DNA from: Frateuria sp. Soil773
GTDB lineage: Bacteria; Pseudomonadota; Gammaproteobacteria; Xanthomonadales; Rhodanobacteraceae
Length of the DNA stretch: 64,000 nucleotides
NCBI RefSeq assembly: GCF_001428405.1
Contig: NZ_LMSL01000005.1
Coordinates: forward strand, 1-64,000
Reading direction: 5' to 3'
The position numbers were made by a program, and so were the translations under genes. The notes below the pieces were generated by a model that saw only the letters and a program-made list of their open reading frames with translations, was not told the DNA's origin and made no database searches. This document shows, one piece after another, positions 29,994-51,214 of the stretch. Each line of letters opens with the position of its first letter. Within the stretch, counting starts at the first letter, position 1.

Positions 29994-30110
29994 CGTTTGA
30001 GATACGCTCCGGGACTAAGACTTTGCATTGTGGCATGGCGGCCGCGTGGAGAGTCTGCCGGCGTTCATGGTCCGCAGGGCGAATGTTAAGGCTGGGCGGG
30101 GTTTCGGGGT

Positions 30111-31410: not shown

Positions 31411-32238
31411 GTGAATCCATATGCCACTCACCGATTGAGCCCGCTGTTCGCCCTGCGTTCCCTGGCAGGGCATCGGCGGCTGATTTTCGAAATGGTCAAG
31501 CGCGAAGTCATCGGCCGGTACCGCGGAGCGATGATGGGGCTGCTCTGGTCGTTCTTCACGCCGGTATTGATGCTGATCGTCTATACGTTCGTTTTCAGTG
31601 TGGTCTTCAAGGCGCGCTGGGGCGGTGGGACCGGTTCGCGCGCGGAATTCGCGATTGTCCTTTTCGCGGGAATGATCGTTTTCAATCTTTTTTCGGAGTG
31701 CATCAATCGGGCGCCGAGCCTTGTGATAGCCAATCCGAACTACGTCAAGAAGGTCATCTTTCCGCTTGAGATATTGCCAGTCGTCGCCTTTGGCTCGGCA
31801 CTCTTCCATTTCTTCGTGAGCGTGCTCGTCTGGCTTTTGTTCTACGTTATCATTTTCGGGATACCGCATATCGGTATCCTGTGGCTTCCGGTCGTCCTGT
31901 TGCCGCTGGCGTTGTTCAGCGTGGGGATTTCATGGTGCCTGGCCTCACTTGGAGTCTTCCTGCGGGACGTTGGACAGGTGATCGGGGTGATCACGACGAT
32001 ATTGATGTTCATGTCGCCGATTTTCTATTCGATAGAATCGCTGCCGGAGAAGTTTCGCGGATTCATGTACCTGAGCCCGGTTACTTATTTCGTGGAGCAG
32101 ACCCGGGACGTGCTGTTCTGGAACAAGGGCGTGCATTGGGAGCCTTGGTGCAAGATGATGCTGCTATCGATGGCCATTGCCGCGCTGGGCTTTGCATGGT
32201 TCCAGAAGACCAGGAAGGGTTTTGCCGATGTCATCTGA
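31411..32238 (+). CDS. wzm: ABC-2 type polysaccharide export permease
   Basis: A 275-residue inner-membrane permease of the Wzm/RfbD family that exports undecaprenyl-linked O-antigen together with an ATPase. It starts at GTG 31411. The N-terminal amphipathic part FEMVKREVIGRYRGAMMGLLWSFFTPVLML is typical. It has about six membrane helices and the family's late YLSPVTYFVEQTRDVLFW. It overlaps the wzt gene by 11 bp. Third-position GC is lower than in the flanking housekeeping genes, in line with horizontal acquisition of the island. Confidence 0.93.
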   Translation: MNPYATHRLSPLFALRSLAGHRRLIFEMVKREVIGRYRGAMMGLLWSFFTPVLMLIVYTFVFSVVFKARWGGGTGSRAEFAIVLFAGMIVFNLFSECINRAPSLVIANPNYVKKVIFPLEILPVVAFGSALFHFFVSVLVWLLFYVIIFGIPHIGILWLPVVLLPLALFSVGISWCLASLGVFLRDVGQVIGVITTILMFMSPIFYSIESLPEKFRGFMYLSPVTYFVEQTRDVLFWNKGVHWEPWCKMMLLSMAIAALGFAWFQKTRKGFADVI

Positions 32239-33556
32239 AAATGTCATCGAGATCGGCGGCCTCGGCAAGTGCTACCAGGTGTACGACAAACCTCGCGATA
32301 GGCTCTTGCAGATGCTTTTCGGCCGGAATGGGAAAAGCTATTACAAGGAGTTCTGGGCGCTTCGCGACATAAGTTTCGCTATTCCCAAGGGGAAGGTGTA
32401 CGGCATTCTGGGGAAAAACGGCGCTGGCAAGTCGACCCTCCTCCAGGTCATCTGCGGGACGCTGGCGCCTACGACGGGCACCGTGGCGGTCAAGGGCAAG
32501 GTCGCGGCATTGCTCGAGCTGGGATCAGGGTTCAATCCGGAGTTCACCGGCATCGAGAACATCTACATGAACGCCCAGTTGCTCGGCCTCAGGCGCGAAC
32601 AGGTGGATGCGAAACTGGAACAGATCATCGCCTTCGCTGATATCGGCGACTACGTGCACCAGCCGGTGAAGACGTATTCCAGCGGTATGTTCGCCCGTCT
32701 GGCATTTTCGGTAACGATCCACGTTGAGCCGGACATCCTCATTGTCGACGAGGCGCTGAGCGTGGGCGATGCGTGGTTCCAGCACAAGAGCATGGCCCGG
32801 ATGCGCAAGCTGATGGAAAGCGGATGCACGGTGCTCTTCGTCAGCCACTCGATCGATGCGGTGCGTGCGTTGTGCGACCACGCCATCTGGATCGAGTCCG
32901 GAAAAGTGAAGATGCAGGGCGGAGTGACGGAGGTCACCAACGCCTACATGAACGACGTGTTCATCGAGCATAACCGTATCGTGCTGGAGTCGATGGCCAG
33001 CGATGTACTGACATTGCCGGAAGTCGGCGACAAGTCTGCAGAGTCGGGGCCCATGCCTGGCGGCGAAGTTTGCGAGGCAGTGGAATCCGAGGCACCAGCC
33101 CCCGCACCGAATGATGGCTCCGTATTGCAGATCGAATCCCTGCAGATACTGGACGCGCAAGGCAAGCCGACGAGCAAGGTCGAGCAAGGCGAGAATTTCT
33201 CGCTTGCGCTCGACGTGATGTTCCACAAGAGCCTGAGAAATGTAAGCGCCGGCTTTCTGATCAAGGACCAGTTCGGACAGGAACTCACGGGCGAGAGCAT
33301 CTTCAACACCTATCGCCGGAGCATGGACGTTCGGGCCGGACAGCGGGTCCGTATCCGTTTCTCGTCGAGCATGCTGCTACGCGGTGGACAGTCGTACAGC
33401 GTTGCCATCCGAATCAATCAGGTCAGCAAATGGGACCGAAGCGACAATATGGTCATCTACGCCGATGAGCTTGCGCTGGTCTTCGACGTGCTGGCCGATA
33501 GCAACGACCCCATGTGGTTCAAGTTCCGCATGCCCTTCCAGGTGACATACCAATGA
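32228..33556 (+). CDS. wzt: O-antigen export ATPase with C-terminal carbohydrate-binding domain
   Basis: A 442-residue ABC ATPase. Residues ~1-250 form the nucleotide-binding domain: Walker A GKNGAGKST, TYSSGMFARLAF signature region, Walker B ILIVDEAL and SVGDAWFQHKSMARM. After a Ser/Glu/Pro-rich linker, residues ~290-440 form a Wzt C-terminal beta-sandwich (LQILDAQGKPTSKVEQGENFSLALDV read in parts, ending WFKFRMPFQVTYQ). In E. coli O8/O9a systems that domain binds the modified non-reducing end of the glycan. Its presence implies a capped, length-controlled O-polysaccharide. The ATG at 32228 is inside the wzm 3' end. Confidence 0.94.
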   Translation: MSSENVIEIGGLGKCYQVYDKPRDRLLQMLFGRNGKSYYKEFWALRDISFAIPKGKVYGILGKNGAGKSTLLQVICGTLAPTTGTVAVKGKVAALLELGSGFNPEFTGIENIYMNAQLLGLRREQVDAKLEQIIAFADIGDYVHQPVKTYSSGMFARLAFSVTIHVEPDILIVDEALSVGDAWFQHKSMARMRKLMESGCTVLFVSHSIDAVRALCDHAIWIESGKVKMQGGVTEVTNAYMNDVFIEHNRIVLESMASDVLTLPEVGDKSAESGPMPGGEVCEAVESEAPAPAPNDGSVLQIESLQILDAQGKPTSKVEQGENFSLALDVMFHKSLRNVSAGFLIKDQFGQELTGESIFNTYRRSMDVRAGQRVRIRFSSSMLLRGGQSYSVAIRINQVSKWDRSDNMVIYADELALVFDVLADSNDPMWFKFRMPFQVTYQ

Positions 33557-35691
33557 ATGGTGCCGACGTAAGCGTCGTCCTCAACCTGCATCGCGAAGCG
33601 CTGCTTCTAGCGCCGACTTTGCGTTCGTTGCATGCCTGTGCGCAGGAGGCTGGCAGAAACGGCATTACCGTAGAAATGGTGGTGGTTTTCGATCGCTCGG
33701 ACGATGCGACCCGCGAAGTGTTCCGCTCGATCCCGCTGCCTGCCTTTTGCCGGGTGGAAGAAGTGGAGGCCGATGTCGGTTCGCTTGGGCTTGCCAGGAA
33801 CGTCGGCATCGAGCGGGCTCGCGGTGAATTCGTCTGGACGGCGGATGCCGACGACCTGCTTTCGTCCAACTGCATCGTCGCGCTGCTCGATAAGGCACGT
33901 CAGCACCCTCGCCCCGAGGTGGCGGTTTTCATGGAATACCTGTGCGCCTTCGGCGACCAGTACCATGTTTGCCGTTATGTCGGGTCGGAATACCTGACGG
34001 CTGCCGATTACGCTTTTCAGCATCCTTACGGATCGAGGATCTTCGTCCGGCGCGCTGCCTTCGATTTGGTCCGGTACGACGATTTGCGTGTGACCTCGGG
34101 ATTCGCCTACGAAGACTGGTTCATGAACTGCGAACTGCGCGCCATCGGCTACGACATGGCCGTGGCTCCGGACACGGTTTTCTTCTACCGGCAGCGGGCA
34201 GGCAGCCTGCTCAGACAGGCAGATGCTGCCTCGGTGCGACTCATTCCGCACAGCCGGCTTTTCGACGTCGAAACCTTCCTGGCTGATATGCAGGCCTGCC
34301 GCGAGCGGGTCGGTAGCTGGGATCGCTTCATGAAGAAGCGGAACGAAATTTTCGAAAGCAACAACACCCGCAGTTTCATGGCATCGGAAAAACTCGTAGG
34401 TTTCATGCGCGACGCAATGCGCCTCGAGCCCGAGATCGAACCAAACCGGGTGGAGGTGGCGGACAGCTATGGTCCAATACCCTGGAATCCCCGGCATTGG
34501 GGCATGCAGCTGGAAAATCTCTACAGGATGGTGGGCAAAGAAAAGTTCACCGATGTAGTGCTATTGCCGTGGCTGAAGCCTGGCGGAGCGGAAAAGTTCA
34601 TACTGCAGGTACTCGAGGAAATCGGGGCCAAGGACCCGGGGGCCAGATTCCTGGTGATTACCGGGGAGTCAGCCAAGGTCCATGAATGGGCGAAGAAGCT
34701 GCCCAGGAACGCAGTCTTCATCGATGCCCACAATGCGTTCCCGCTCCTGGACGAGAAAGAGTGCCGCCAGATGCTGCTGCGGGCGATGCTGGCAGTGAGC
34801 GAGGATGGTGCCCGGCTGCATCTGAAATCGTCGGTGTTCGCCCATCGGATGCTGGACGCTTATGCTCCCGTGCTGGCCGGCAAGTTCCGCACCGTCTACT
34901 ATCGTTTCAGTGATGGAACATATGCCTGGCGTGGTGAGCGGCTGCGCGGCCCATGGGGTATCAACCACATGCGGCGCCATCTCGGCGGATTCTGGAAAGT
35001 CGTGTGCGATTGCAATGCGATTGCGGACTATGACCGTACTTTCCTGGGCATCCTGGGTTCCAAGTACGAGACGATTTACGCCAGGTGCGATCCCAAGCCG
35101 GCGGGAGACAAATCGTCACAGCCGAAGCGGCGCCTGCTCTGGGCATCGCGGGTTGCCCCCGAGAAGCGGCCGGAATTGCTCGTGCGGATCGCTGCAGCCT
35201 TGAAGGACGCGGGAATCGATGTGGTGATCGACGCCTATGGAGCGACATGCGACGGGCTCCATCCACGGGATCTGTTCGATCGGCAGTCTGGCATCGTTTA
35301 TTACGGTTCGTTCTCGTCGTTCTCGGCCTTGCCCATCGAGTCGTACGATGCTTTCCTGTACACGAGTGCCTATGACGGCCTGCCCAACGTCCTGCTCGAA
35401 GCCCTGGCGGCGGGTCTGCCCGTCATTGCGCCGGACGTGGGCGGCGTCAAGGAAGCGGTCGTCAGCGGTACCACCGGATGGTTGGTCCAGGCGGAAGACG
35501 ACGATACCCTGGTCCGCCATTATGTCGATGCCATCCGGGAGCTTTACGCGGATTGGTCCGTGGCCGCGGAAATGGCGTCCAACGGGCGGCATTTGATCGC
35601 TCATCGCCACGGCGTCGAAGCGTTCACGCAACGCGTGGCCGAAGCTTTCGACCTCGGCCTCGACTGCGACGAAACGAAGAAGGTGGCCTGA
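33553..35691 (+). CDS. two-domain glycosyltransferase (GT2 + GT4)
   Basis: A 712-residue cytoplasmic glycosyltransferase overlapping wzt by ATGA. Residues ~1-260 are a GT-A (GT2) domain: DVSVVLNLHREALLLAPTLRSL, VGSLGLARNVGIERARGE and the metal-binding TADADD. Residues ~345-705 are a GT-B (GT4) domain: LLPWLKPGGAEKFI, LLWASRVAPEKRPELLVRIA and the C-terminal nucleotide-sugar loop LLEALAAGLPVIAPDVGG. The two domains match, one each, the two separate proteins encoded on the minus strand at 39040-39795 and 37595-39043. It probably adds two successive sugars to the O-antigen repeat; the sugars cannot be told from sequence. Confidence 0.9.
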   Translation: MNGADVSVVLNLHREALLLAPTLRSLHACAQEAGRNGITVEMVVVFDRSDDATREVFRSIPLPAFCRVEEVEADVGSLGLARNVGIERARGEFVWTADADDLLSSNCIVALLDKARQHPRPEVAVFMEYLCAFGDQYHVCRYVGSEYLTAADYAFQHPYGSRIFVRRAAFDLVRYDDLRVTSGFAYEDWFMNCELRAIGYDMAVAPDTVFFYRQRAGSLLRQADAASVRLIPHSRLFDVETFLADMQACRERVGSWDRFMKKRNEIFESNNTRSFMASEKLVGFMRDAMRLEPEIEPNRVEVADSYGPIPWNPRHWGMQLENLYRMVGKEKFTDVVLLPWLKPGGAEKFILQVLEEIGAKDPGARFLVITGESAKVHEWAKKLPRNAVFIDAHNAFPLLDEKECRQMLLRAMLAVSEDGARLHLKSSVFAHRMLDAYAPVLAGKFRTVYYRFSDGTYAWRGERLRGPWGINHMRRHLGGFWKVVCDCNAIADYDRTFLGILGSKYETIYARCDPKPAGDKSSQPKRRLLWASRVAPEKRPELLVRIAAALKDAGIDVVIDAYGATCDGLHPRDLFDRQSGIVYYGSFSSFSALPIESYDAFLYTSAYDGLPNVLLEALAAGLPVIAPDVGGVKEAVVSGTTGWLVQAEDDDTLVRHYVDAIRELYADWSVAAEMASNGRHLIAHRHGVEAFTQRVAEAFDLGLDCDETKKVA

Positions 35692-35696
35692 AGCCC

Positions 35697-37550
35697 ATGC
35701 ACTTGTATTTGTATGCGGACGACGAAAGCATCGAGGTCCTTGGTGCGCAGCGTCCCAAGGCCCTGTTGATCGGCAGCGACTTTGGCTACGGGAATTTCGG
35801 CGACGTCCTGCAGCACAAAGGAGCGATATCGCGCGTCAAGGCCGCTTCAGGACTTGCCGCGGTTTCGATATTGACGCTGGATGCCATTTCCAGATACGTC
35901 GATACCGGGGCGCTCCGCAAGGACTATGGGGCGGATGCCCTCGCGTTTGTCTCCGAAATGCCGATCGCGTCCGAAACGGCCGCGCAATTGCAGCTGCGCG
36001 AAGTCGCGGTCCTACGCAACGTTTCGTACATTCAGCTTTATGGCGGGGGTTTTCTGAACGAGATGTGGGGCGACTTCGTTCTCGGGGTCGCCGAGTATTT
36101 CCTCGAGCGCTTGCCCGGCGCTGCTTACGTCATATCCGGACAGCAAATTGCTGGCGCCTATGCGTCGCGGGTTCGCGACCATGTAGCCAGGTTCAAGCCG
36201 CAGATGCTGGGGGTCAGGGACCGGAATTCCGCCGGTCTCATGGCCGACCAGGGCATGCGTGCGGACTTCTCTTTCGACGACGCCGTAGAGCCGCTTCTGG
36301 AGTTGCACCACAAGCTGGGTCTGCAAGCGGGTGAAGGTGCCTTCGTCCATCTGAACACGTCGGGCTACACCGGCAACGACGGCGCGATGGACGAAATGGT
36401 TGCCCATTTGCGCCTGGTTGCCGACCGCGTCGGCTCCGAAAAGCCGACCCTTCTCCACGCATTCCAGGATGCCAGGGAGGAAGTGGTGGATTCGATCGAG
36501 ACGGTGAAGCGGCTCGAATCGGGATTCCCTTTCACCGACGTCGAGACCGTGATGCTTGTTGCCGCGATCATGGAAAGCGGGCATCCAGGAAACATGCGTG
36601 TGCTGACTGGGCGATTCGGGTACTCGAGTTCCTATCATGTGACGCTTTGGCTCCAGCTTGCCGGCATTCCCTGCTGGTTGCGAGGCAGCAACGAATACTA
36701 CCGGCAGAAGAGGGCAGCTCTGGGCATCGAGGGGAGGTTCGAGGACTTCCTGGAACAGATGCATTGCCCCGACCACCGCGAGAACCTGCACGAGAGATCG
36801 CAATGGGTCGCGCGGCTCGAGCATATCCTCGGTCGCGCGGAACTGATGGAGAACAGGATCGCCTGGGAGAGAAGCAACCGTGCCACGCCGGAGCGCACCT
36901 TCAACTTCAAGGGCGAACCGAGGATGGAGGAGCGTCTGAACCAGGCATGGCAGGCCGCCGAAGGCAACCGCCAGGAAAACGAGCGGTTACGAGCGCTATT
37001 GGAAGGCGACACGGATGGGACTGGTGCGCAGGATCCGGTCAGGCAGAGTCGCCATGAAGGCGGATTGGACGTGCTCTTCGCGCGGTTCGAGAAAGCGGTG
37101 ATGGCCAGCGCCAAGCTCGAAATCGAATTGCTCCATAGTGCCGAGAAAATCGGGGAACTGGAGCAGGGGCTGGCCCGGGAGCGCGCGCTGGCGGAAGCCT
37201 TGAAGAGCCGACTGGAAGAGACCGAGTTGCGCATGCAGGCATGCAATAGGCAACTGACCGAGGTCGGCACGGACGCGAGGTACTACCGCGAGCAGTACCT
37301 GTCGATGCAGTCCGGACTGCAGCAGGCGGCAGTCTGTGCCGAGCAATTGCGGCAGATCACGAGCAGCCGTTCGTGGCGTATCACGCGCCCGCTCCGGGTC
37401 GCCAATCGCTTCCTTGCCACCAGGCGCTTCGACCCCGCGGGCGAGGTCGGCGTGTACGCCATGCTGCGAATCGTTGCAGAGAAGCTGCCGATCAAGGCGA
37501 GGTGGAGATCCGCGGCTGGGCGCACATTGCGACGGTTCCGCCGGCGCTGA
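35697..37550 (+). CDS. polysaccharide pyruvyl transferase family protein with coiled-coil extension
   Basis: A 617-residue protein starting five bases after the upstream gene. Residues ~20-400 resemble the polysaccharide pyruvyl transferase (CsaB/WcaK) GT-B fold: KALLIGSDFGYGNFGDVLQHKG, YIQLYGGGFLNEMWGD, LGVRDRNSAGLM and later SSSYHVTLWLQLAGIPC. Residues ~420-580 are a charged coiled coil. The end carries SRSWRITRPLRVANRF, a tail seen in many O-antigen glycosyltransferases, followed by a basic stretch. It may add pyruvate ketals or a related terminal group, which would suit a Wzt that reads chain ends. Specific reaction uncertain. Confidence 0.82.
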   Translation: MHLYLYADDESIEVLGAQRPKALLIGSDFGYGNFGDVLQHKGAISRVKAASGLAAVSILTLDAISRYVDTGALRKDYGADALAFVSEMPIASETAAQLQLREVAVLRNVSYIQLYGGGFLNEMWGDFVLGVAEYFLERLPGAAYVISGQQIAGAYASRVRDHVARFKPQMLGVRDRNSAGLMADQGMRADFSFDDAVEPLLELHHKLGLQAGEGAFVHLNTSGYTGNDGAMDEMVAHLRLVADRVGSEKPTLLHAFQDAREEVVDSIETVKRLESGFPFTDVETVMLVAAIMESGHPGNMRVLTGRFGYSSSYHVTLWLQLAGIPCWLRGSNEYYRQKRAALGIEGRFEDFLEQMHCPDHRENLHERSQWVARLEHILGRAELMENRIAWERSNRATPERTFNFKGEPRMEERLNQAWQAAEGNRQENERLRALLEGDTDGTGAQDPVRQSRHEGGLDVLFARFEKAVMASAKLEIELLHSAEKIGELEQGLARERALAEALKSRLEETELRMQACNRQLTEVGTDARYYREQYLSMQSGLQQAAVCAEQLRQITSSRSWRITRPLRVANRFLATRRFDPAGEVGVYAMLRIVAEKLPIKARWRSAAGRTLRRFRRR

Positions 37551-37594: not shown

Positions 37595-39043
37595 TCAGGA
37601 CGAATAGCCCGGGATCCCGCGCAAACTTGCGACGAAGGCTTCGGTGGTGAATCCGGGCAGTCGCTCCTGCTGGATGTTCAGCCAGGCTTCGCGTGCGACC
37701 GGGTCTTCCAGTGCTCGGATAGCGCGTACGTATCGGTCTGCGTCGTCGGCGGGATGGATCAGGTGCTGAGCGGGAATCAGGTCGCGAATGCCGCCAATGT
37801 CGGGCGCAACGACAGGCAAATGCGAGCTGGCGGCTTCCAGCAGGACGTTCGGCAAGCCATCCCATGCCGTGGTGTAGATGAAGGCCGCATGGTCCGGGCG
37901 TACGATCTTGGCGAAATCGTCGTAGCCGCCGTGCAACGTCACATTATCCGCTTTCTGCAAGGCGCCGATGTCACCCCCGTGGCCAGGGACGACCTGGATG
38001 CCATAGACGTCCCAGTGATAGTCCGGCAACGCGGCGACGAGGCGGGCCAGGAGGTCGGGGCGTTTCTGGCGATCCAGGCGGCTTGCCCAGAGCAGTCGCT
38101 TGCCGGATCGTGATGCTTCAGCAGGACGTGTTGGCGGTGCGGGGAAATGCACGACATGGAAAAGATCGTCGGCCACGCCAAGGTCGCGACGCCAGCCTTC
38201 GGGAGAAACTGAATTGTCGGTAATCACCGCATCCAGGCAGGAGGCGGCATCTGCCAGGTAGCGGACGGCCAGTCCATCGCGGTAACCGCGCTCGTCGCGG
38301 TCATCGCAATAGAGCGACGCATAGAGCCGGCTTGCCTGCCTAATGGCCAGGCCATGGCGGACGACGGTACGCCAACCCAGATGCGAGCCGATGAGGTGGA
38401 CGCGGCGGGGAGCCAACTGGATCAGCAGGCGTGCCAACACTATCTCCTGCTCGGCATGCGGCGTGCTGAGTTTGGCCAATTCCAGGCCGGCTTCCAGGAA
38501 CCGTACTCCACCAGGCAAGCGCGTGGCCCATGGCGAATCGTGCGGTTCCGTGGCGATCACCAGAATTCGATGGCCGAAGGCCTCGTGGCACGCGCGGATG
38601 TGGTGGAGTGCGCCGAGGTCAGCGCCGCCGCGCTTGAGCCACGGGACCAGGAATACCGTGTCGTAGTCGCCTTGACCAAGTTGCGAACGCAGGTGCCCGT
38701 AGACGATTCCCGCTTCCTGCCAATGGATCGGCGGCGCGTAGAAGCCAGGGTGGGCAGCGACGAATTTGTCGGGTGAGAGCATGGGGTCGACGGTACGCGC
38801 GAGGCCATCCATGTCCTTTCTTGCCCAGTCCGGAAGCCTGCGCTGCGGGCCAGGCGGGATGCGGGGCCGCCGCCGGACCAGCAAGGGATCGACCGAGGCT
38901 GGCCAGGCGTGTGCGGGAAACAGGGCGCGGGCCATACGCAATGCGGCGCTGGCGGTCGATTTCTGCCAACGCATGGGAAGACGAGAGAACACCTGCTCGT
39001 CCACGAGCCGGTAGATCCGGATGAGTGCGCGGCGCAGTGTCAT
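37595..39043 (-). CDS. GT4-type glycosyltransferase
   Basis: A 482-residue GT-B glycosyltransferase. Its N-terminal ~100 residues are basic and may associate with the membrane. The core has VFLVPWLKRGGADLGALHHI and VHLIGSHLGW. The C-terminal domain carries LLWASRLDRQKRPDLLARLV, FIYTTAWDGLPNVLLEAASSHLPVVAPDIGG and LPGFTTEAFVASL. It is similar in sequence to the C-terminal half of the 712-residue protein at 33553. The ATG at 39043 overlaps the upstream GT2 stop (ATGA). It faces the plus-strand genes across a 44-bp gap. Confidence 0.9.
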   Translation of the reverse strand: MTLRRALIRIYRLVDEQVFSRLPMRWQKSTASAALRMARALFPAHAWPASVDPLLVRRRPRIPPGPQRRLPDWARKDMDGLARTVDPMLSPDKFVAAHPGFYAPPIHWQEAGIVYGHLRSQLGQGDYDTVFLVPWLKRGGADLGALHHIRACHEAFGHRILVIATEPHDSPWATRLPGGVRFLEAGLELAKLSTPHAEQEIVLARLLIQLAPRRVHLIGSHLGWRTVVRHGLAIRQASRLYASLYCDDRDERGYRDGLAVRYLADAASCLDAVITDNSVSPEGWRRDLGVADDLFHVVHFPAPPTRPAEASRSGKRLLWASRLDRQKRPDLLARLVAALPDYHWDVYGIQVVPGHGGDIGALQKADNVTLHGGYDDFAKIVRPDHAAFIYTTAWDGLPNVLLEAASSHLPVVAPDIGGIRDLIPAQHLIHPADDADRYVRAIRALEDPVAREAWLNIQQERLPGFTTEAFVASLRGIPGYSS

Positions 39044-39795
39044 GGAGCGAAGCCGAAAAGCCGGGTACGGTGGATCAGGGCATGATGGCGTTCGTGTGCC
39101 GCATTGAGCGAACCGTGCGCCTTCCTTCGAACATAGTGCACGGTACCCTCGGCAATTCGATGGGGGTGGCCGAGAGAGAGCGTTTCGCAGTTCCAGTGCC
39201 AATCTTCGAACCCAAACCCGCTTTCCCCGGGGCGCGCCCGCACATAGGGAACATCGATATACAAATCGCGTCGCGCAAAGCTGCATGAGTTCCAGGGGTT
39301 GCAGACCAACAGGCAAGCCGGATCAAAGGCGGGATCATCGTCGCCGACCTGCCAACTGATGGCGTTCCATCCGTCGAACAGAACCACCAACTGAGCGTGA
39401 AGAATGGCCTTCCCGCCGAATTCCGAGGCGGCTTGCATGCAGCAGCAGATGAAGTTCTCCGACAGGTAGTCGTCGCCGTCACAGACCAGCACCCAGCGGC
39501 CGGATGCCTCCCGGATTGCCTTGTTGCGGGCAAGCCCAAGATCGCCGATGTCGAGTGGCAGCAGCACGTCAGGTTTGCCGGGACCATCGTAGCCGCGCAC
39601 AACGCGTTCGGTTTCCGCATCCGGGCGGTCCAGGGTCGCGACGATCTCCACGCGGATGCCCGCTTTTTCCGCCGCGATGCGGCAACGGCTCAACGACAGC
39701 AGGCTCTTGTGCGCCAACAGCCCTTCCTGGTGGAAAGTGATGACGACCGAGACATCGGGCTGCATGATGTGGGATTGCACGAGCGCCTCTGTCAT
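39040..39795 (-). CDS. GT2-type glycosyltransferase
   Basis: A 251-residue GT-A glycosyltransferase. QPDVSVVITFHQEGLLAHKSLLSLSRC (read in parts), DIGDLGLARNKAIREASGRWV and the metal-binding VCDGDDYLS are present. GFGFEDWHWNCE near the C-terminus holds the catalytic acidic residues. It resembles the N-terminal half of the protein at 33553-35691. I chose ATG 39795, five bases after the galE stop; a later ATG at 39765 is possible, and neither has a good ribosome site. It is coupled to the GT4 gene by ATGA. Confidence 0.87.
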   Translation of the reverse strand: MTEALVQSHIMQPDVSVVITFHQEGLLAHKSLLSLSRCRIAAEKAGIRVEIVATLDRPDAETERVVRGYDGPGKPDVLLPLDIGDLGLARNKAIREASGRWVLVCDGDDYLSENFICCCMQAASEFGGKAILHAQLVVLFDGWNAISWQVGDDDPAFDPACLLVCNPWNSCSFARRDLYIDVPYVRARPGESGFGFEDWHWNCETLSLGHPHRIAEGTVHYVRRKAHGSLNAAHERHHALIHRTRLFGFAP

Positions 39796-39800
39796 GCGGG

Positions 39801-40820
39801 CTAGCCGGATGCCGCTTCCGCACCTGCATGGCGAAGCTGCCAATTCCAGGCGTCCGCGCACATCCTGGCCAGGTCAAGACGGGCACGCCAGCCGAGCAGA
39901 CGCTGGGCTTGCGCGGGATCTGCATAGCAACTGGCGACATCGCCTTGCCGACGACCAACGATACGTATGGGCACGGCGCGCCCGCTGGCTGCCTCGAAGG
40001 CGTGCACGACTTCGAGCACGCTGTATCCCTGTCCAGTGCCGAGATTGACGGTGAGGCTTTCTTTCCGGCGAGCCAGGAAGTCGAGGGCGTCAACGTGGGC
40101 GGCTGCCAAGTCGAGTACGTGGATGTAGTCGCGCAGGCCGGTGCCGTCGGGCGTCGGATAATCATTGCCGAAGACCTGCAGGTATTCGCGCTGGCCGCTC
40201 GCGACCTGCGCGATGTATGGCATCAAGTTGTTTGGTATTCCATGGGGGTCTTCGCCGATCAACCCGGATGGATGGGCGCCCACGGGGTTGAAGTAGCGCA
40301 GTACCGCGGCGTGAAACCGTGGCTGTGCCTGCACCAGGTCGGAAATCAGCTGCTCGCAGACCAGTTTCGTCCTGCCGTACGGATTGGTGATGCGGGTGGC
40401 CGCAGTCTCGGGAATGGGGCATGCGTCGGGTTCACCGTAGACCGTGGCCGACGAACTGAAGACAAACAGGTCTACTCCGCTGGCTTTCATCGCCTGCAGA
40501 AGGCTGATGGTTCCGCCGATGTTGTTGTCGAAATAGCGCAGCGGCTGCTGCCAGGATTCGCCGACCGCCTTCAGTGCCGCGAAGTGGATGACCGCATCGA
40601 CATTCCACTCTTCGAGCAGCTTGCGGACCAATGGCTGATCGCGGACATCGCCGACAGCGAGGACGGGCCGGCGACCCGCAATGCTGGCGATGCGATCGAT
40701 TACCTCGGCCTTGCTGTTGGACAGGTTGTCCAGTACGAAGACATCGTGACCGCGCTCGAGCAACTCGGTGCAGGTGTGCGAGCCGATGAAGCCGGTACCC
40801 CCGGTGACCATCACTCTCAT
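39801..40820 (-). CDS. galE: UDP-glucose 4-epimerase
   Basis: A 339-residue SDR epimerase interconverting UDP-glucose and UDP-galactose (or the N-acetyl forms). It has VTGGTGFIGSHTCTELLERG, VIHFAALKAVGES, SSSATVYGEP and the catalytic NPYGRTKLVCE. YFNPVGAHPSG, DGTGLRDYIHV and NLGTGQGYSVLE are GalE hallmarks. It is first in a three-gene minus-strand unit with the GT2 and GT4 genes, so galactose or GalNAc is a likely substrate for one of them. Confidence 0.95.
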   Translation of the reverse strand: MRVMVTGGTGFIGSHTCTELLERGHDVFVLDNLSNSKAEVIDRIASIAGRRPVLAVGDVRDQPLVRKLLEEWNVDAVIHFAALKAVGESWQQPLRYFDNNIGGTISLLQAMKASGVDLFVFSSSATVYGEPDACPIPETAATRITNPYGRTKLVCEQLISDLVQAQPRFHAAVLRYFNPVGAHPSGLIGEDPHGIPNNLMPYIAQVASGQREYLQVFGNDYPTPDGTGLRDYIHVLDLAAAHVDALDFLARRKESLTVNLGTGQGYSVLEVVHAFEAASGRAVPIRIVGRRQGDVASCYADPAQAQRLLGWRARLDLARMCADAWNWQLRHAGAEAASG

Positions 40821-41274: not shown

Positions 41275-43923
41275 TTGCTCGTTCTGCTGCTGTGCGGGTT
41301 GACGGGGCGGGTATGGCTTGCGTTGTTGATGGAATTCCTACTGCTCTGGCTGCTCCGCTATGCGGACCACACTAAGATCGTTTACCTCGGCATCAACGTG
41401 GTATATGCCGATCTTACGGTGCTCGGCGGGATCCTGGAGAACCCTCGTCTCGTCGTTGGCTTCATCCATCCCACCGGAGCGAAAATCGTCGGTGTGCTTG
41501 CCGCGATCGTAGGCATTGCCGTCCTATACCTTTTCTTCCGGAAATGGCTGAATCGACTCCCCGCACTGATCGACAGGTACGTGCGGATATCTTGCCTTTT
41601 CCTGGCCGTGGCTGGTTTGGCCGTTGTGAATTTCTGTCGCGTGCCCGACGTGATCGCGCCGCTCGGATGGGAAGTCTTTTCGCAGATTCACGGTGCATAT
41701 GCGGCCGGCATAACAGGCAACTTGCTTCTCGGCAAGATGACCGAGAGAAGCGTCCAGCGAAAGCCCGACAAGGCTGCGATCCGTGCCTTCTGGCAGGAGC
41801 CGGCAGTGAAGTCGGTAGTGGCGGGCCTGGAGGGGGTAAAGAGCGTATCCCGCCCAGACATCGTGGTCATCCAGAGCGAGTCCCTTTTCGAGCCTTCCCA
41901 GCTTTGCGGCTTTCCCGACGAGCCGGTGCTGAAGCATGTTGCCCAGCAGCGGCCACGCGGAGCGGGAAATCTGCATGTGCCCGTATTCGGTGGACGGACC
42001 TTGCAGACCGAATTCGAGGTTCATACCGGGGTTCCGGTCGATTTCTATCCGGGCTCGATGTTCGCTTACTACGAACTGGTCAAGCATCCTTTCAATGCGC
42101 TGCCAGGGTTGCTTGCCCAGCAGGGATACAAAACGCTGGCGATCCATCCAGGCAATCGGGGTTTCTGGCGGCGCGATGTGGCGATGCCTGACATGGGCTT
42201 CGATGCCTTCGAAGCGATTGGAAGCTTTCTATATCCGCGGGATTTCTCCGATCGCGGGCACGTGCGCGATGCCGCATTGATGCGGGCGATACTTGCCGAG
42301 CTGGATGCGGCGAGCGGACCTACCTTCATTACCGGCATCACCATAGACAATCATTTTCCGTACGGGGCGGGCGCACCACCCATGGATGCGGGCCTGGGAA
42401 TGCCGGACAGCCTTCAAGGCCAGGCTCGCAGGGAAATGTCGGATTATCTGGTTCATGCCATCGATGCCGACAACGCCTATGGCTTCCTGCTCGATGCATT
42501 GAAAAGGCGGGAGCGCCCGACGGTCGTGCTGTTCTATGGCGACCACTTGCCGCCTTTGGGTTCCGTCTACCAGGAGCTGTGTTTCAAGGATGGCAAGCGT
42601 CCCGAGGAACATTTCCCGCCGTTCCGCATCTGGGCGAATTTTCCGTTGCCCAACATTCCCGATACGACCTATTCCTATCTTTTGCCCGGCATGCTGATGC
42701 ATGCCGCCGGGTTGCCTTTGGAAGAAGTCATGCTAGCCAACGCCGTGGCCGGCATCGTGGCGAACAACCCTGCGACGGGTCCAGACGAGCGTCAGCGCAT
42801 CCTGGATGAATACGCCAACATTGCAGCGGCCGACACGGCACGTCGCGTGTCGCCGGATCCCGGACGAGGTCCGGTCTTCGTCAGCAGGGCACATGGCCTA
42901 AAGTTGCTCATGGCGCTGTCCGAAAAGGGCAAGGACGTTGCCGGCATATCGCCCGAGCACAGCGACCTTTATTTCCCACGGCCGGACGGGGGGGAAGTGG
43001 ATTTCAAACTTGATGGCGGTATCGGTTCGATGACGCTGCGTCCGTATCTGGGAGCCCCGACACTGGCATGCATGCATGCCGATACGGACAAGCGGGCGGA
43101 GTTTGGTATCGAAGGCGATGGCAAGCTGCTTTACCGAGTGTCGGTGACAGCGCAGTCCGTCCGGCTGGTAACGCTGGATCTGAAAGGCGTCAGGCATCTG
43201 AAGTTATGGACGACCGGAAGCGGCAGCTCGAGAGCCTGTTCGCAGTTGTTTGTCAGAGTCGCCCGCATGCGCTGCTATTCGGCCAAATGTGCAGGGACGC
43301 AGCAGGAGGTAGCTCATGTCGAAGCCTCTGCCGATGAATCTAGGATTCTCAAGGCTGATCCGGAAGCTGGTGATATTGCCGAACTGGCCTCGGTCACGCC
43401 CGAAAGCGTTCGCCTTTCGGGCGAGGAAAAACCTGGCCTGTTCTGGCTGATGGATCGTGAAACCGGGCGCGCCGATGGATATTCGCCAATTTCGGTGGAG
43501 CCTGGCGGGCGCCTGTTCATGCCGCCTGCCGACGATCACTCCGCCTGGATCGATTTCGACGTGGATGCGTTGGACGAGGTGACATTTGACCCTCATATCA
43601 ATCAGCTCACGCCCGAATGCGCGCTCAACAACGAATCAGGCAAGGAGTCCGGCCTGGTGAAGTTGGCGTTCCTGCTGGATGGCAAGCCCGTGGCCGCACC
43701 GCGCATAGTGGATCGAAACTATAGAGGGGCTGTCTCGGTCAAGACGGACGGGGAGCGCACTCTGCGTATCGTCGTGGACAAGGGGAACCAGGTGTCATGG
43801 TGCGACTGGTTTTCGATCGGAGTGGATAAGCTGAAACCCAAGAATCCTGGTGCAGGCGGAAATGCGCGGCTACCGGACGTCACCGCCTCATATCGCGCCG
43901 TGCCTCCTCCCATCGATCAATGA
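41275..43923 (+). CDS. LTA-synthase/phosphoglycerol-transferase-like sulfatase-fold membrane protein
   Basis: The open frame of up to 882 residues has no good start of its own (TTG 41275 or ATG 41329, neither with a ribosome site); the true start was probably 41134. About four membrane helices lie before residue ~155. An alkaline-phosphatase-superfamily domain follows: DIVVIQSESLFEPS (metal-binding Glu), FGGRTLQTEFEVHTG (candidate nucleophile Thr242), and FYGDHLPPLG. The last ~350 residues are a beta-rich region I do not recognise. Family members transfer phosphoglycerol or phosphoethanolamine to glycans outside the membrane, so it may decorate the O-antigen. Whether a working protein is made is doubtful. 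Confidence 0.8.
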   Translation: MLVLLLCGLTGRVWLALLMEFLLLWLLRYADHTKIVYLGINVVYADLTVLGGILENPRLVVGFIHPTGAKIVGVLAAIVGIAVLYLFFRKWLNRLPALIDRYVRISCLFLAVAGLAVVNFCRVPDVIAPLGWEVFSQIHGAYAAGITGNLLLGKMTERSVQRKPDKAAIRAFWQEPAVKSVVAGLEGVKSVSRPDIVVIQSESLFEPSQLCGFPDEPVLKHVAQQRPRGAGNLHVPVFGGRTLQTEFEVHTGVPVDFYPGSMFAYYELVKHPFNALPGLLAQQGYKTLAIHPGNRGFWRRDVAMPDMGFDAFEAIGSFLYPRDFSDRGHVRDAALMRAILAELDAASGPTFITGITIDNHFPYGAGAPPMDAGLGMPDSLQGQARREMSDYLVHAIDADNAYGFLLDALKRRERPTVVLFYGDHLPPLGSVYQELCFKDGKRPEEHFPPFRIWANFPLPNIPDTTYSYLLPGMLMHAAGLPLEEVMLANAVAGIVANNPATGPDERQRILDEYANIAAADTARRVSPDPGRGPVFVSRAHGLKLLMALSEKGKDVAGISPEHSDLYFPRPDGGEVDFKLDGGIGSMTLRPYLGAPTLACMHADTDKRAEFGIEGDGKLLYRVSVTAQSVRLVTLDLKGVRHLKLWTTGSGSSRACSQLFVRVARMRCYSAKCAGTQQEVAHVEASADESRILKADPEAGDIAELASVTPESVRLSGEEKPGLFWLMDRETGRADGYSPISVEPGGRLFMPPADDHSAWIDFDVDALDEVTFDPHINQLTPECALNNESGKESGLVKLAFLLDGKPVAAPRIVDRNYRGAVSVKTDGERTLRIVVDKGNQVSWCDWFSIGVDKLKPKNPGAGGNARLPDVTASYRAVPPPIDQ

Positions 43924-44113: not shown

Positions 44114-45895
44114 TTATTTAATTTTTGTGATCACAATATTGCATCCGTAATTGTTTTTCGAGCCCTCAGCCATGCTGACTGCTAGTATAGCGCTACCTAT
44201 ATTTTTACCCCAGCCATTCAGCACTATGGGTGTAGATCCACTATAAATCCCACTGGCAAGTTGCTGGCCCGTGAGACTCTTCAAATTGAAAAATAGCGGG
44301 TACGTGCAGGTGCTTTTTCCTTTCCTGATCAAATATCCCTTCTGTACTGGCTCGAGCATGACGGAAACTGGTCTTTTGCTGCTGCCTGGAAAGAATGGAG
44401 TGATTTGCGCCGAGTCGGAGCTGTAACGCAGAAATATGCGATACCCAAGTTTGAGTTCGGTTTCCTCGAATTCGCCCGGATAATCTCGCTGAATGACATT
44501 TAGTTGGTGGATGGATTTGTTATTGATATCAAATATGAGAGCTAACTTTCCATTTAATGCTAGAAGGGGTGATACTTGATTTTCATGTGTAGCGAGATAT
44601 TGTTGGACTTCATTGCAAAAGCTTGCCGTGCACTCTTCGAGTTTGATGTCATACCTCTTTAGCATGGACATGGTTAGTGCTGGCATTACATTTGGAGCGT
44701 CCATTGACCGAAGTTCGGCAGTGCGTCGTGGATCTCCTACAACCTCTACATAAGGGATGCCGGTTATTGCCTGGTATTGATGGATCCAAATGGCAAGTTC
44801 CTCCTGGTACGCGGCGATTGGTTGCTTTTGTCTGTAAAGATTCCACCAGCTATGCATCCCATATATAGAAAGTAGTGATAGTAAGATGAGTCCGGTGGTT
44901 TTGCATAACGTATGATCAGACATCGCCGTCTGCGCGCAGAGTGCGCAGATCGCAAGCCATAGCCATACGTAAGAGCGAGAAGGTATTGGCGTCCCTGTAA
45001 TCAGGACTATGCCAAGTTCGATGCCACATATTAGTAGTGCGGCCAGAAGGATTGAGGTTGCCATGCGGCGGGTTTCTGGCCTTCCGATTGCGGCTATTGA
45101 CGCAACGACTCCACACACAATGGGTATGGCATGAAGTCGCAGCAGTGTGCTCCATGAGCCAAAGTAAAGTGCGATATTGGCAACTGCATCAGTAATGCTG
45201 CGTAGTGGGTGAGGGTGGCGCCAAGTGTCGATCTTGACTCCAAAGTGTCCGTGTTCAAAATAATTCAAAAAGTAAATGGCAAGCGAGCCGATGGCAAATG
45301 CGAAGACATAAGTAAAGGCTAGGGCGGCCTTAAATTTTATTTGCGACTCTGCTGTTTTTATAGTGGCTGCAAGTAGAACTATTGAGGCGATAGGAGGATA
45401 CGTGAGGATCAATAGAGATGTGGAAATGAAAATGACTGGCAATATATGACTTTTTTTGGCCAGAAGAATCGCCAGCGTTGATAAGCTTCCGATAGCGACA
45501 CTAATAAACATACCCGTTGGCCATAGTGAGAGATCGCCAAACATGGGCGAGAAGAACAGGGCCAAACCGCAAAGAAGAAACGTTCTCGGGGCGGATATGT
45601 GGTGCGCCACTGCGCATGACATAACAAAGTATGCCGTGATATAGAGCAAGTAAGAGCTCTTAGGTGTGAGGTGCTGGCTAGCCCCGTACCATAAATAGCT
45701 TATCCAGCGACCCTCGGTTAGCGTCTTTTCCCATGGAGTGGAATAGCCTCCATTCCATCCTTTTGGCATCAAGAAATCGAAATCGTCATGCCTTATGTAG
45801 GGGGTGCTTAGCTGAGATGTTGCGTACAGAAAGAAAAATACAATAAAAGCAAATCCCAGGATTTGCCAAGATAAGCCATGATGGTTGTCTTGCAT
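44114..45895 (-). CDS. multi-spanning membrane glycosyltransferase, GT-C/GtrII-like
   Basis: A protein of ~593 residues with about ten membrane helices over the first ~390 residues. A hydrophilic, probably periplasmic C-terminal part of ~200 residues carries three or more cysteines. After the first helix comes IRHDDFDFLMPKGWNGGY, then TLTEGRWISYLWYG. The Asp-Asp pair plus GRW matches the layout of GtrII-like and other GT-C enzymes that use polyprenyl-phosphate sugars in the periplasm. Its DNA is markedly AT-richer than everything around it, a sign of recent transfer. The start is uncertain (ATG 45895 or 45913). Specific family membership is inferred from topology and those motifs. Confidence 0.75.
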   Translation of the reverse strand: MQDNHHGLSWQILGFAFIVFFFLYATSQLSTPYIRHDDFDFLMPKGWNGGYSTPWEKTLTEGRWISYLWYGASQHLTPKSSYLLYITAYFVMSCAVAHHISAPRTFLLCGLALFFSPMFGDLSLWPTGMFISVAIGSLSTLAILLAKKSHILPVIFISTSLLILTYPPIASIVLLAATIKTAESQIKFKAALAFTYVFAFAIGSLAIYFLNYFEHGHFGVKIDTWRHPHPLRSITDAVANIALYFGSWSTLLRLHAIPIVCGVVASIAAIGRPETRRMATSILLAALLICGIELGIVLITGTPIPSRSYVWLWLAICALCAQTAMSDHTLCKTTGLILLSLLSIYGMHSWWNLYRQKQPIAAYQEELAIWIHQYQAITGIPYVEVVGDPRRTAELRSMDAPNVMPALTMSMLKRYDIKLEECTASFCNEVQQYLATHENQVSPLLALNGKLALIFDINNKSIHQLNVIQRDYPGEFEETELKLGYRIFLRYSSDSAQITPFFPGSSKRPVSVMLEPVQKGYLIRKGKSTCTYPLFFNLKSLTGQQLASGIYSGSTPIVLNGWGKNIGSAILAVSMAEGSKNNYGCNIVITKIK

Positions 45896-46025
45896 GGGGT
45901 TTTCTGTGCGCATATCACATTGTTTTGACAGTGGTGGGTCGTTCGATCTGCATGTCAGGCTTCGGATGGCTGAGATTTTTTTGTAAATCACGCAAATCAA
46001 ACGAAACAACCAGCTTCTTATTTTG

Positions 46026-47156
46026 TTAGAGGGTGGCGATTGCTTCGTCGACTGCCTGTAATACCTGTTCCAGATGGGGCTCCAGACCTAGCCAGAGCGG
46101 CAGTCGGACCAGACGGTCGCTGATGTCGTCAGTCACGCCCATGTCCGAAGCCACTCGGCCAAGCCGCTGGCCGGCTGGCGCGGAGTGCAGTGGTATGTAA
46201 TGGAATACGCATTGCACCCCCTGTTCACGCATATTGGTGATGAACCGCGTCCGGGCTTCTAGGCTTGGCAGTAGCGCATAGTACATGTGCGCATTGTGTC
46301 GGCAATGAGACGGCACGATGGGGCGGCGTAAAGATCCGTTGTCCTCATGCTTTTTCGCCCAGGCATGGTAGCGATCCCACAGCGCCAGCCGCTGCGCGGT
46401 GATGCTGTCGGCCATTTCGACCTGCGCCGCGAGGAATGCGGCTGTGATTTCGCCCGGCAGGAACGAGGAGCCGAGATCGACCCATGTGTACTTGTCTACC
46501 TGGCCGCGGAAGAAGCGGCTGCGGTTGGTGCCCTTTTCACGAACGATTTCGGCTTGCTCGGCGAAGTCCTGGTCGCGACAGAGCAGGGCTCCACCTTCGC
46601 CGGCAATGACGTTCTTGGTTTCGTGGAAGCTGTAAGCGCCCAGGTCGCCGATGGCGCCGAGCGGCTTGCCCTTGTAAGTGGACAGGATGCCTTGGGCCGC
46701 GTCCTCCACCACGCGCAAACCGTGCTTTGCCGCGATGGCAAGTATGGCGTCCATTTCGCAGGCCACGCCGGCATAGTGGACCACGCATATGGCCTTGGTG
46801 CGCGGCGTGATGGCGGCTTCGATCAGTGTTTCGTCGATGTTGAGCGTGTCGGGTCGCACATCCACGAACACCGGCACCGCGCCGCGCAATGCGAAGGCGC
46901 TGGCCGTGGTCACGAACGTATAGGACGGCACGATGACTTCGTCGCCCGGCTCCAGTCGCAGCAACAGGGCCGCCATTTCGAGCGCGGCGGTACAAGAGTG
47001 GGTAAGCAGTGCCATGTGCGCGCCGCTTTGCTCGCGCAGCCACTGGTGGCACTTCCTGGTAAAGGGGCCGTCGCCTGACAGGTGTCCATTCGCATGGGCC
47101 TGGGCGATGTACGACAGTTCGCGCCCGGTCATGTAGGGGCGGTTGAATGGGATCAT
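46026..47156 (-). CDS. wecE: dTDP-4-amino-4,6-dideoxygalactose transaminase (WecE/RffA-like)
   Basis: A 376-residue DegT/DnrJ/EryC1/StrS aminotransferase. The N-terminus MIPFNRPYMTGRELSYI and the length match E. coli WecE, and the PLP lysine Lys181 in SFHETKNVIAGEGGAL falls at the same number. EVIVPSYTFVTTASAF, VVEDAAQG and HYIPLHSAPAGQRLG are typical. WecE aminates dTDP-4-keto-6-deoxyglucose, which rmlA/rmlB here can supply. The start is placed at 47156 (MIPF) rather than two codons upstream. It lies in the same run as the acetyltransferase expected to act next. Confidence 0.92.
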   Translation of the reverse strand: MIPFNRPYMTGRELSYIAQAHANGHLSGDGPFTRKCHQWLREQSGAHMALLTHSCTAALEMAALLLRLEPGDEVIVPSYTFVTTASAFALRGAVPVFVDVRPDTLNIDETLIEAAITPRTKAICVVHYAGVACEMDAILAIAAKHGLRVVEDAAQGILSTYKGKPLGAIGDLGAYSFHETKNVIAGEGGALLCRDQDFAEQAEIVREKGTNRSRFFRGQVDKYTWVDLGSSFLPGEITAAFLAAQVEMADSITAQRLALWDRYHAWAKKHEDNGSLRRPIVPSHCRHNAHMYYALLPSLEARTRFITNMREQGVQCVFHYIPLHSAPAGQRLGRVASDMGVTDDISDRLVRLPLWLGLEPHLEQVLQAVDEAIATL

Positions 47157-47187
47157 GTCCATTGTCCGTGGATGGATATGTGAAAGA

Positions 47188-47562
47188 TCAGGCCTGGCTC
47201 ATGATGACCAAGCCTGCGACTACCGTGAGCAAGCCGACCGCCTTGGCCGTCGAGAAGGATTCACCGAAAAGCGGCACGGCAATCAGGCAGACGATCAGAA
47301 AGTTCAGGGCCATGAACGGATAAGCCTTGCTCAGCTCGAGCTTGGAGACGGCGAGCATCCAGCATAGCGAAGCGCCGAAGGCTGCGATGAAGGCCGAGAT
47401 GATCCATGGCTGGAACAACAGTTGCACCAATGGCGGCAGGCGCGAGAGGAGGCCGACGGTAGATGCCTTGAACGTGCCGACTTGCCACTTGATGACAAGC
47501 TGGCCGTAACAGGTGAGCAGGATGGTCATGGCGACCATGAGCCAGGAGAAGGCGGCGTTCAC
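47188..47562 (-). CDS. small four-helix DMT-type transporter (EmrE/ArnE-like), candidate lipid-sugar flippase
   Basis: A 124-residue membrane protein with four hydrophobic helices. WLMVAMTILLTCYGQLVIKWQ in helix 1, ASLCWMLAVSKLELSKAYPFMALNFL and a last helix ending GLVIMSQA are close in plan to EmrE and ArnE/ArnF proteins. The GTG at 47562 follows GGGAG by eight bases and overlaps the acetyltransferase stop (GTGA). In this neighbourhood a role in moving a polyprenyl-phosphate sugar across the inner membrane is more likely than drug efflux. It would work as a dimer, like other small DMT proteins. Confidence 0.82.
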   Translation of the reverse strand: MNAAFSWLMVAMTILLTCYGQLVIKWQVGTFKASTVGLLSRLPPLVQLLFQPWIISAFIAAFGASLCWMLAVSKLELSKAYPFMALNFLIVCLIAVPLFGESFSTAKAVGLLTVVAGLVIMSQA

Positions 47563-48323
47563 AGCAATGTCTCCCGTACGCGGAGCCGGCGGTCGATGTG
47601 ATAGGTATCGTAGGCCCGCTCCAGGGATAACCCGGCTCGCGCCCACTGGCGCTGCACGGTGTAGTTCCACAGCTGGGTCGAGATGGCGAGGCGCCGATAC
47701 GACCGGGCGGAATAATGGTGCAGGATGCCCTTGAGCAAGCGCCCGTACAGCCCTCGCTGCGAAAACCGCGGGTGAACGGCATTGAGCACGATCTCGGCCT
47801 TGCTTCCGTCGGCGGAAAGATCGCAGGTTGCGAAGCCGGCAGCGCGTCCTTCCGCAGTTACTACCCAGGTGCAGCTTCCGGGATTCGACGGCGCCAACCG
47901 GCTCTTGGCCCATTCGACGTAGCCGGCGAGGATCTTGTCCTGAGGCAGCAGGGGGTTGGCGGAGTAATGCGCACGGTAGCCCTTGAAGCTGCTTTCGGCG
48001 ATCTCGTGGATGGCATCCTGGTCGGCGCTGGTCGCAAGCCGGACCTCTTCGGGCAACGGTTCGTGAGTCAATGCGGTCAGATCGATGCCGTAGTAGACGA
48101 GCGTATCCGCGTGGATCACCGGCCATCCCTGACGCTGCAGTTGGACGATGGCGCTGGAATCTCCTGCGTCGGTACGCAGGATGATCAGGTCGGCATCGCA
48201 GTTCGTGACTTCGTCGACGATGTCGGCGCAGGAGGTACTCGCCGGCACCTGGCCGCGCACGACCTTGATACCGAACCGGGCGGAGTCGAGCGCGGAATCA
48301 CTCAGTACGCGGGAACTGCCCAT
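47559..48323 (-). CDS. wecD: GNAT acetyltransferase, WecD-like (dTDP-fucosamine acetyltransferase)
   Basis: A 254-residue protein with an N-terminal part of ~115 residues seen in WecD/RffC-type enzymes. A GNAT domain follows, with EEVRLATSADQDAIHEIAESSFKGYRAHY, WVVTAEGRAAGFATCDL and the acetyl-CoA loop HPRFSQRGLYGRLLKGIL (RxxGxxG/A-like QRGLYG). The start at 48323 is one base past the GT2 stop. WecD acetylates dTDP-4-amino-4,6-dideoxygalactose made by WecE. The presence of both supports a Fuc4NAc product. Other 4-amino sugars cannot be excluded from sequence alone. Confidence 0.85.
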   Translation of the reverse strand: MGSSRVLSDSALDSARFGIKVVRGQVPASTSCADIVDEVTNCDADLIILRTDAGDSSAIVQLQRQGWPVIHADTLVYYGIDLTALTHEPLPEEVRLATSADQDAIHEIAESSFKGYRAHYSANPLLPQDKILAGYVEWAKSRLAPSNPGSCTWVVTAEGRAAGFATCDLSADGSKAEIVLNAVHPRFSQRGLYGRLLKGILHHYSARSYRRLAISTQLWNYTVQRQWARAGLSLERAYDTYHIDRRLRVRETLL

Positions 48324-50255: not shown

Positions 50256-50271
50256 GTTCGATTCCTCGTGC

Positions 50272-50356
50272 CGTCGTTCCGGCAGGCGCCGGAACCCAGT
50301 GTCTTTGGCTTGATGTGGACGAAAGTCGCTGGATCCCCGCGTTCGCGGGGATGACG
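50272..50356. repeat. REPIN-like element in the etfB-etfA gap
   Basis: Two 28-base hairpin units, 50272-50299 and 50329-50356, lie in inverted orientation 29 bp apart. They agree at 19 of 28 positions as reverse complements. Each is itself a small hairpin (GGATCCCCGCG TTCG CGGGGAT in the right unit). The ends read CGTC..CCAG and CTGG..GACG, like widespread proteobacterial REP doublets. No RAYT transposase is in the window. Confidence 0.65.
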
Positions 50357-50361
50357 AGCGA

Positions 50362-51108: not shown

Positions 51109-51214
51109 ACGCGGTTCCTTACTGTGTGGGCAGCCCTGGCGGGTGCTCGAAAGCCGCCATTCTAACCCGGCGGCAAACACATGTATGAAATACCGCGGAC
51201 GGCGCCGGGGCCGG

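Follow-up and report, generated by a model that had tools for sequence, protein, structure and literature searches.

A PF04230-like head with a coiled coil and basic tail beside a Wzt_C exporter in Frateuria sp. Soil773, a candidate chain-capping terminator of an O antigen

The stretch of DNA analysed here (the window; 64,000 nucleotides of Frateuria sp. Soil773, contig NZ_LMSL01000005.1) contains a polysaccharide cluster bounded by a gene for a cystathionine-type PLP enzyme at 30028 and by electron-transfer flavoprotein genes at 49314-51387. The cluster has a GC content of 0.58-0.64, with one 2-kb stretch of 0.47, compared with 0.68-0.70 in the flanks. Four genes on the forward strand follow each other in an operon-like order: wzm, encoding the ABC-2 membrane subunit (31411-32238); wzt, encoding the ABC ATPase (32228-33556, start chosen in an ORF listed from 32177); the gene of a two-module GT2-GT4 glycosyltransferase (33553-35691, start chosen in an ORF listed from 33514); and the gene under study (35697-37550), the ATG of which lies five bases past the stop of the GT2-GT4 gene. 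Wzt carries a C-terminal Wzt_C domain (71.7 bits in Pfam; extent used in searches 33104-33553, forward strand), confirming the end-reading domain that an earlier note on this DNA had assigned to it. The coordinates given there for the gene under study were also right, running from ATG to stop. The encoded protein of 617 aa consists of a head domain (residues 1-408, 35697-36920), a coiled coil (36921-37388) found by a crude heptad scan at residues 409-436 and 462-564 and broken at 437-461, and a C-terminal region (residues 557-617, 37365-37547) with the motif SRSWRITRPLR and basic, partly amphipathic helices, which is likely a membrane or complex anchor. A PF04230 search of the Frateuria assembly matched this place only.

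Downstream on the reverse strand lie a GT4 glycosyltransferase (37595-39316) and a GT2 glycosyltransferase (39040-39861), with counterparts in a Microbulbifer locus at 33% and 37% identity, respectively. The same cluster encodes on the forward strand an LtaS-like sulfatase-fold protein with an NPCBM domain (41275-43923), 40% identical to a Microbulbifer protein that adjoins the homolog of the head protein there (L002 9837-12503); it is possibly an extracytoplasmic glycan modifier.

The head was followed in eight homologs, namely those of the window, Microbulbifer, one Candidatus Paraburkholderia, two Caballeronia, Tepidicella (Burkholderiales) and two more genomes of the same family as the Caballeronia genome. 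An orthologous GT2-GT4 protein lies directly upstream in seven of the eight loci, the window counted, the exception being L020. In Tepidicella the GT2-GT4 part and the pyruvyltransferase-like head are fused in one protein of 1209 residues (L006 5862-9491). Microbulbifer shares with the window the GT2, GT4, GT2-GT4, head and LtaS-like genes; compared with the window exporter, its Wzm is only 20% identical and its Wzt is without Wzt_C. Outside the genome of the window, the head was matched in none of 98 relatives, with three further genomes matching in coil and tail only, in none of 368 genomes drawn from the class, again with three matching in coil and tail only, and in none of 397 drawn from the phylum. 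In the family of the Caballeronia genome it was matched in 4 of 299 genomes, two of them already known. These counts indicate that the head family is rare and probably horizontally acquired, the rarity being an upper estimate because alignment queries scored up to 3-4 candidates per genome. A phage or plasmid origin was rejected, as neither the head against a phage collection nor the whole protein against a plasmid collection (tblastn) gave a match.

The sole Pfam family found for the window protein is PF04230 (polysaccharide pyruvyltransferase), its score of 14.8 bits falling short of the cut-off, which is 25.3. PF04230 is matched by seven of the eight family members, above the cut-off in two of them (L020, 27.7 bits; L002, 27.2 bits), and it is the only Pfam match that recurs across the family. 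NCBIfam gave no match for the head-coil-tail protein, searches of PDB sequences gave no informative relative, and PHROGs gave no family for the window protein; four PHROGs families each matched one of the six members scanned, possibly through coil similarity. Glycan pyruvyltransferases, known and predicted, conserve NxGD, RxxxS/T and a His (PMC10629545). All three motifs are invariant in the alignment of the eight homologs, as N33-F-G35-D36, R174-xxx-S178 and H314, and belong to a total of 98 invariant columns. The head is related, though divergently, to the polysaccharide pyruvyltransferases of the PF04230 superfamily.

The coil is real, although the length of about 160 residues once claimed for it was slightly generous: it totals about 130 residues in two pieces. 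AlphaFold placed helices at residues 410-436 and 457-555. The heptad scan also flags stretches of 28-34 residues in globular heads, so that only runs well above this count. The longest heptad-like run of the protein has 103 residues, while none of 18 further ORFs from the region exceeds 49, making it the only long run among the 19 ORFs checked. Within segment 409-556 the observed run of 93 residues was reached by none of 200 shuffles. In contrast to the window coil, that of Tepidicella spans about 33 residues by the heptad scan, which is at noise level and weakens a ruler role there. A relaxed form of the tail motif had 22 occurrences in the ORFs of 33 loci (333,289 aa) and none in the reversed sequences. 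The surroundings of the motif are basic and amphipathic, with helices predicted, which is compatible with a membrane anchor like the membrane-associated C-terminal part of WbdD (PMC11231755). We infer that the tail anchors the protein at the membrane, and the coil might serve as a ruler. Chance similarity was rejected as an explanation of the protein, since the head is kept in eight homologs and both the tail motif and the coil exceed their controls.

The surroundings of Wzt_C domains were compared in 29 other loci, comprising 28 regions that matched the window Wzt_C at the E-value limits and L090, a tail-motif hit whose Wzt also has the domain; more divergent Wzt_C domains that gave no match (such as those of L092 and L143) fall outside this set. 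A SAM-methyltransferase lies downstream of wzt in 26 of the 29 and is the adjacent gene in 24, the 26 including L087 (adjacent, with a Pfam score below cut-off), L064 (second ORF listed) and L069 (about 4 kb away). The three uncounted loci are L066 and L081, with none in the downstream ORFs scanned, and L062, which meets the contig end; on the upstream side of wzt, both L066 and the flank of L081 (L152) do have a methyltransferase-like ORF. The methyltransferase protein bears the motif SxSWRxTxPLR in 16 of the 26 loci, and the heptad-like runs of these tailed proteins reach 56-169 residues in 12 and the noise level of 38-44 in the other four. The motif is there in the window protein. The earlier description of the tail as otherwise seen on O-antigen glycosyltransferases is half right: of the 18 motif-bearing proteins scanned in Wzt_C loci, 16 have methyltransferase heads, one a DUF4915 head and one no recognised head. 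These 18, L092 included, are taken from 20 such proteins, the second ones in L069 and L085 being left out. In an even draw of class genomes with any transporter, the tail was present in 19 of 134, and the ten tailed proteins scanned from this draw were four methyltransferases, four GT4 proteins, one with a sub-cut-off sulfotransferase match and one without assignment. Among them, a tailed GT4 protein (L099) is encoded upstream of the L081 gene for Wzt_C, and a tailed methyltransferase (L104) is the protein of L078, which has a looser form of the motif and stands outside the 16.

Polysaccharide loci often contain methyltransferases, and the base-rate control was a phmmer search on the short-Wzt loci only, the heads of the methyltransferases serving as queries; it gave a match in L003, where another ORF matched a methyltransferase by Pfam, and none in L002, L004, L005, L020 and L021. 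Among the cluster genes scanned with Pfam and NCBIfam, neither the window nor the Tepidicella locus yielded a methyltransferase, and phmmer with 26 of the methyltransferase heads against ORFs of at least 100 aa found none in the whole window or in the 17-kb Tepidicella locus. The head-coil-tail layout that accompanies Wzt_C with methyltransferase heads is the chain-terminator layout described in PMC11231755.

The window and Tepidicella share the gene order wzm-wzt-GT2GT4-head, with identities of 62, 67, 52 and 42%, respectively, while for the remaining glycosyltransferases the similarity is distant or a counterpart is missing. The two Wzt_C domains share 63% identity. The other Wzt_C matches came from 28 genomes (6 of 184 further genomes of the class, 4 of 219 of the family of Tepidicella and 18 of 118 further relatives) and are at most 34% identical, the highest local BLAST value being 36%. 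Therefore, in this one pair of loci, the domain goes with the module and not with the nearest relatives. Joint transfer of the wzm-wzt-GT2GT4-head block would be the simplest cause.

Taken together, the methyltransferase-type layout in the Wzt_C loci, the finding of none of these enzymes in the window and Tepidicella and the matched Wzt_C domains support a capping or terminating role, as the earlier note had suggested; length measurement and pyruvate chemistry are inferred. Against the terminator idea speak six homolog loci with exporters apparently lacking Wzt_C, a serine in place of one PEP-binding arginine and a fold search that did not single out pyruvyltransferases. Similar to the window protein, WbdD, WbbB, ORF7 of Klebsiella O4 and ORF6 of O7 have a capping head N-terminal to a long coil and a Wzt with a carbohydrate-binding module (PMC11231755), and a coil is described as characteristic of terminators in the same source. 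However, their heads are methyltransferase/kinase or Kdo-transferase domains, where the window head is PF04230-like (PMC11231755), and the window coil is interrupted and followed by no polymerase module, unlike the terminators of the WbdD and WbbB type as they are described there. Starting from the observed architecture, the family relation of the head, the linkage to the partner, the Wzt_C matching between window and Tepidicella and the layout common to methyltransferase-type proteins, we propose, at a chance we put at about even, that the protein is a chain-capping terminator of an ABC-transporter-dependent O antigen. The head would transfer pyruvate, probably from PEP, onto the non-reducing terminal sugar, and the acceptor would most likely be the sugar placed by the partner GT2-GT4 enzyme. 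The coil would keep the head off the membrane while the basic tail anchors it, allowing capping only after some chain growth. The matched Wzt_C domain would recognise the cap, which may signal completion of the chain and clear it for export. The window protein is thus most likely a capping protein with a pyruvyltransferase-type head that acts with its GT2-GT4 partner, and within the window it is the leading candidate for the terminator expected with a Wzt_C exporter.

Another possible reading, to which we give roughly half that weight, is that the enzyme pyruvylates a repeat-unit or side-branch sugar placed by the GT2-GT4 enzyme, with coil and tail acting only as a tether and with neither termination nor measuring. 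It draws on the exporters of the homolog loci, as six of the eight have a short Wzt of 237-249 aa. Pfam did not find Wzt_C in the short-Wzt loci L002 and L004, and a genome-wide search did not find it anywhere in the genomes of L002-L005; for L020 and L021 the assignment follows from Wzt length only. Homologs with coil and tail thus stand beside exporters apparently without Wzt_C, so that the cap cannot be needed as an export signal in every locus; here export of the product probably does not depend on end reading, which would match Klebsiella O1. The direct fusion of the Tepidicella head to a glycosyltransferase with only a short coil, and the presence of the tail on ordinary glycosyltransferases, point in the same direction. 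A precedent is WbbZ of K. pneumoniae O1, which like the window protein has PF04230-type motifs and belongs to an ABC-transporter-dependent O antigen, and which works with the dual-glycosyltransferase enzyme WbbY to place a terminal cap, much as the window protein has its GT2-GT4 partner. The terminal pyruvate of Klebsiella O1 is real (PMC10629545), a point in favour of the terminator reading, but WbbZ shows that pyruvylation need not control length; in the accounts of PMC10629545 and PMC11231755 it neither sets chain length nor licenses export. However, the WbbZ transporter is described in PMC11231755 as without a CBM, whereas the window Wzt has Wzt_C, and the PDB chain of WbbZ, at 272 aa, would leave no room for a coil of the window type. 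The precedent of exporters with Wzt_C calls for a terminator in the window, where no other scanned cluster gene resembles one, and the co-occurrence of Wzt_C with the module in both the window and Tepidicella also favours the terminator.

In CsaB of Paenibacillus alvei and Pvg1p of fission yeast, which resemble the head in the R and H of the PEP-site motifs and, for Pvg1p, in the GT-B fold, an Arg two residues before the catalytic His contacts PEP (CsaB R306, Pvg1p R337; PMC10435577, PMC4872226); the available text of these two reports mentions no coil or tail for either enzyme. This position is Ser312 in all eight homologs. Five PF04230 members above the cut-off (L120, L129, L133, L135 and L137) have Ser there too, and we therefore file the head only as a relative in the PF04230 superfamily. 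An invariant K338 follows the His by 24 residues, the spacing of the PEP-site Lys K328 in CsaB being 20. A fairly confident model of the head built from six sequences has a GT-B fold (pLDDT 82.7, pTM 0.85). The fold search of the models ranked UDP-GlcNAc 2-epimerases first and did not single out pyruvyltransferases; Pvg1p was found with Z 11.5 for the poorer full-length model and lay outside the best 50 matches for the better head model. WbbZ (6X1L) was absent among the matches listed, which says nothing against a relation. Profile-profile comparison with six other PF04230 members was weak, giving a probability of 3.2% and an E of 0.014 with the GGG, RD and H regions aligned; the six-member control alignment used for it was poor, with two members badly placed, and found Pvg1p and WbbZ in a PDB sequence search.

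The Ser, the sub-threshold Pfam score and the preference of the fold search for UDP-sugar enzymes would suit a PF04230-superfamily enzyme of GT-B fold with a different donor, for instance a nucleotide sugar, which would cap or extend the chain but not pyruvylate it. We regard this as unlikely, as the three published pyruvyltransferase motifs are invariant, two relatives exceed the PF04230 cut-off, and the DALI search reported for WbbZ itself was likewise dominated by 2-epimerases below Pvg1p (PMC10629545). Least likely by far is a head that has lost catalysis and scaffolds its GT2-GT4 partner; one changed PEP-binding position speaks for this, and against it stand the 98 invariant columns with their catalytic-type motifs.

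The pyruvate-terminator idea is already in print, and to that extent the 'different chemistry' of the earlier note is not new: PMC10629545 names Burkholderia vietnamiensis G4 and P. protegens as candidates for pyruvate-based termination and length regulation, without biochemical proof according to that source. The proposed function is the same as that considered here, and the window family looks like a distinct, divergent version. The exact family may have been described before, the relevant literature found being PMC10629545 and PMC11231755. A further candidate comes from G497, a genome of the same family as the Caballeronia genome (L143 4395-9639), in which the gene of a Wzt with a Wzt_C domain (62.5 bits) directly precedes that of a protein of 1303 residues. 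This protein has a complete PF04230 domain (131 bits), a C-terminal GT2 and, at residues 498-606, a heptad-like run 109 residues long. BLAST showed no meaningful similarity of this protein to the window protein, nor between the two Wzt_C domains, and it is an independent candidate for pyruvate-based termination.

More tentatively than the terminator itself, we suggest that wzm-wzt-GT2GT4-PyrT forms a mobile 'cap and read' cassette, in which GT2-GT4 would lay the cap sugars, the coil-borne head would close them off with a pyruvate ketal and Wzt_C, inherited together with the rest, would read the pyruvate cap, and which would have arisen independently at least twice, in the PF04230 branches of the window and of G497. 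According to PMC10629545, methyl and methylphosphate caps dominate among candidate systems, with Kdo in two Klebsiella serotypes. If the proposal is true, the cassette would add a third export-licensing chain end besides methyl/methylphosphate and Kdo. With its matched reader domain and conserved glycosyltransferase partner, such a clean locus would allow a direct test of whether an acidic ketal can act as stop signal and export ticket alike, and the coil-plus-tail part suggests a reusable ruler or anchor on which the capping heads are swapped.

Three further observations concern neighbouring sequences. In L092 (5749-10430), a Wzt_C transporter precedes a protein that combines a DUF4915 head, possibly another capping head, with a heptad-like run of 123 residues and an SRSWR tail. 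In the window, 44114-46009 encodes a protein of 631 residues with no Pfam or NCBIfam match; its ORF sits in a stretch of 46% GC, the window having 66%, and the gene is perhaps a recent arrival. In addition, 46026-48126 holds a WecE-type dTDP-4-amino-4,6-dideoxyhexose transaminase (NCBIfam) and a neighbouring EamA/ArnE-F-like gene below the cut-off, and the transaminase suggests that the glycan may contain an amino-dideoxy sugar.
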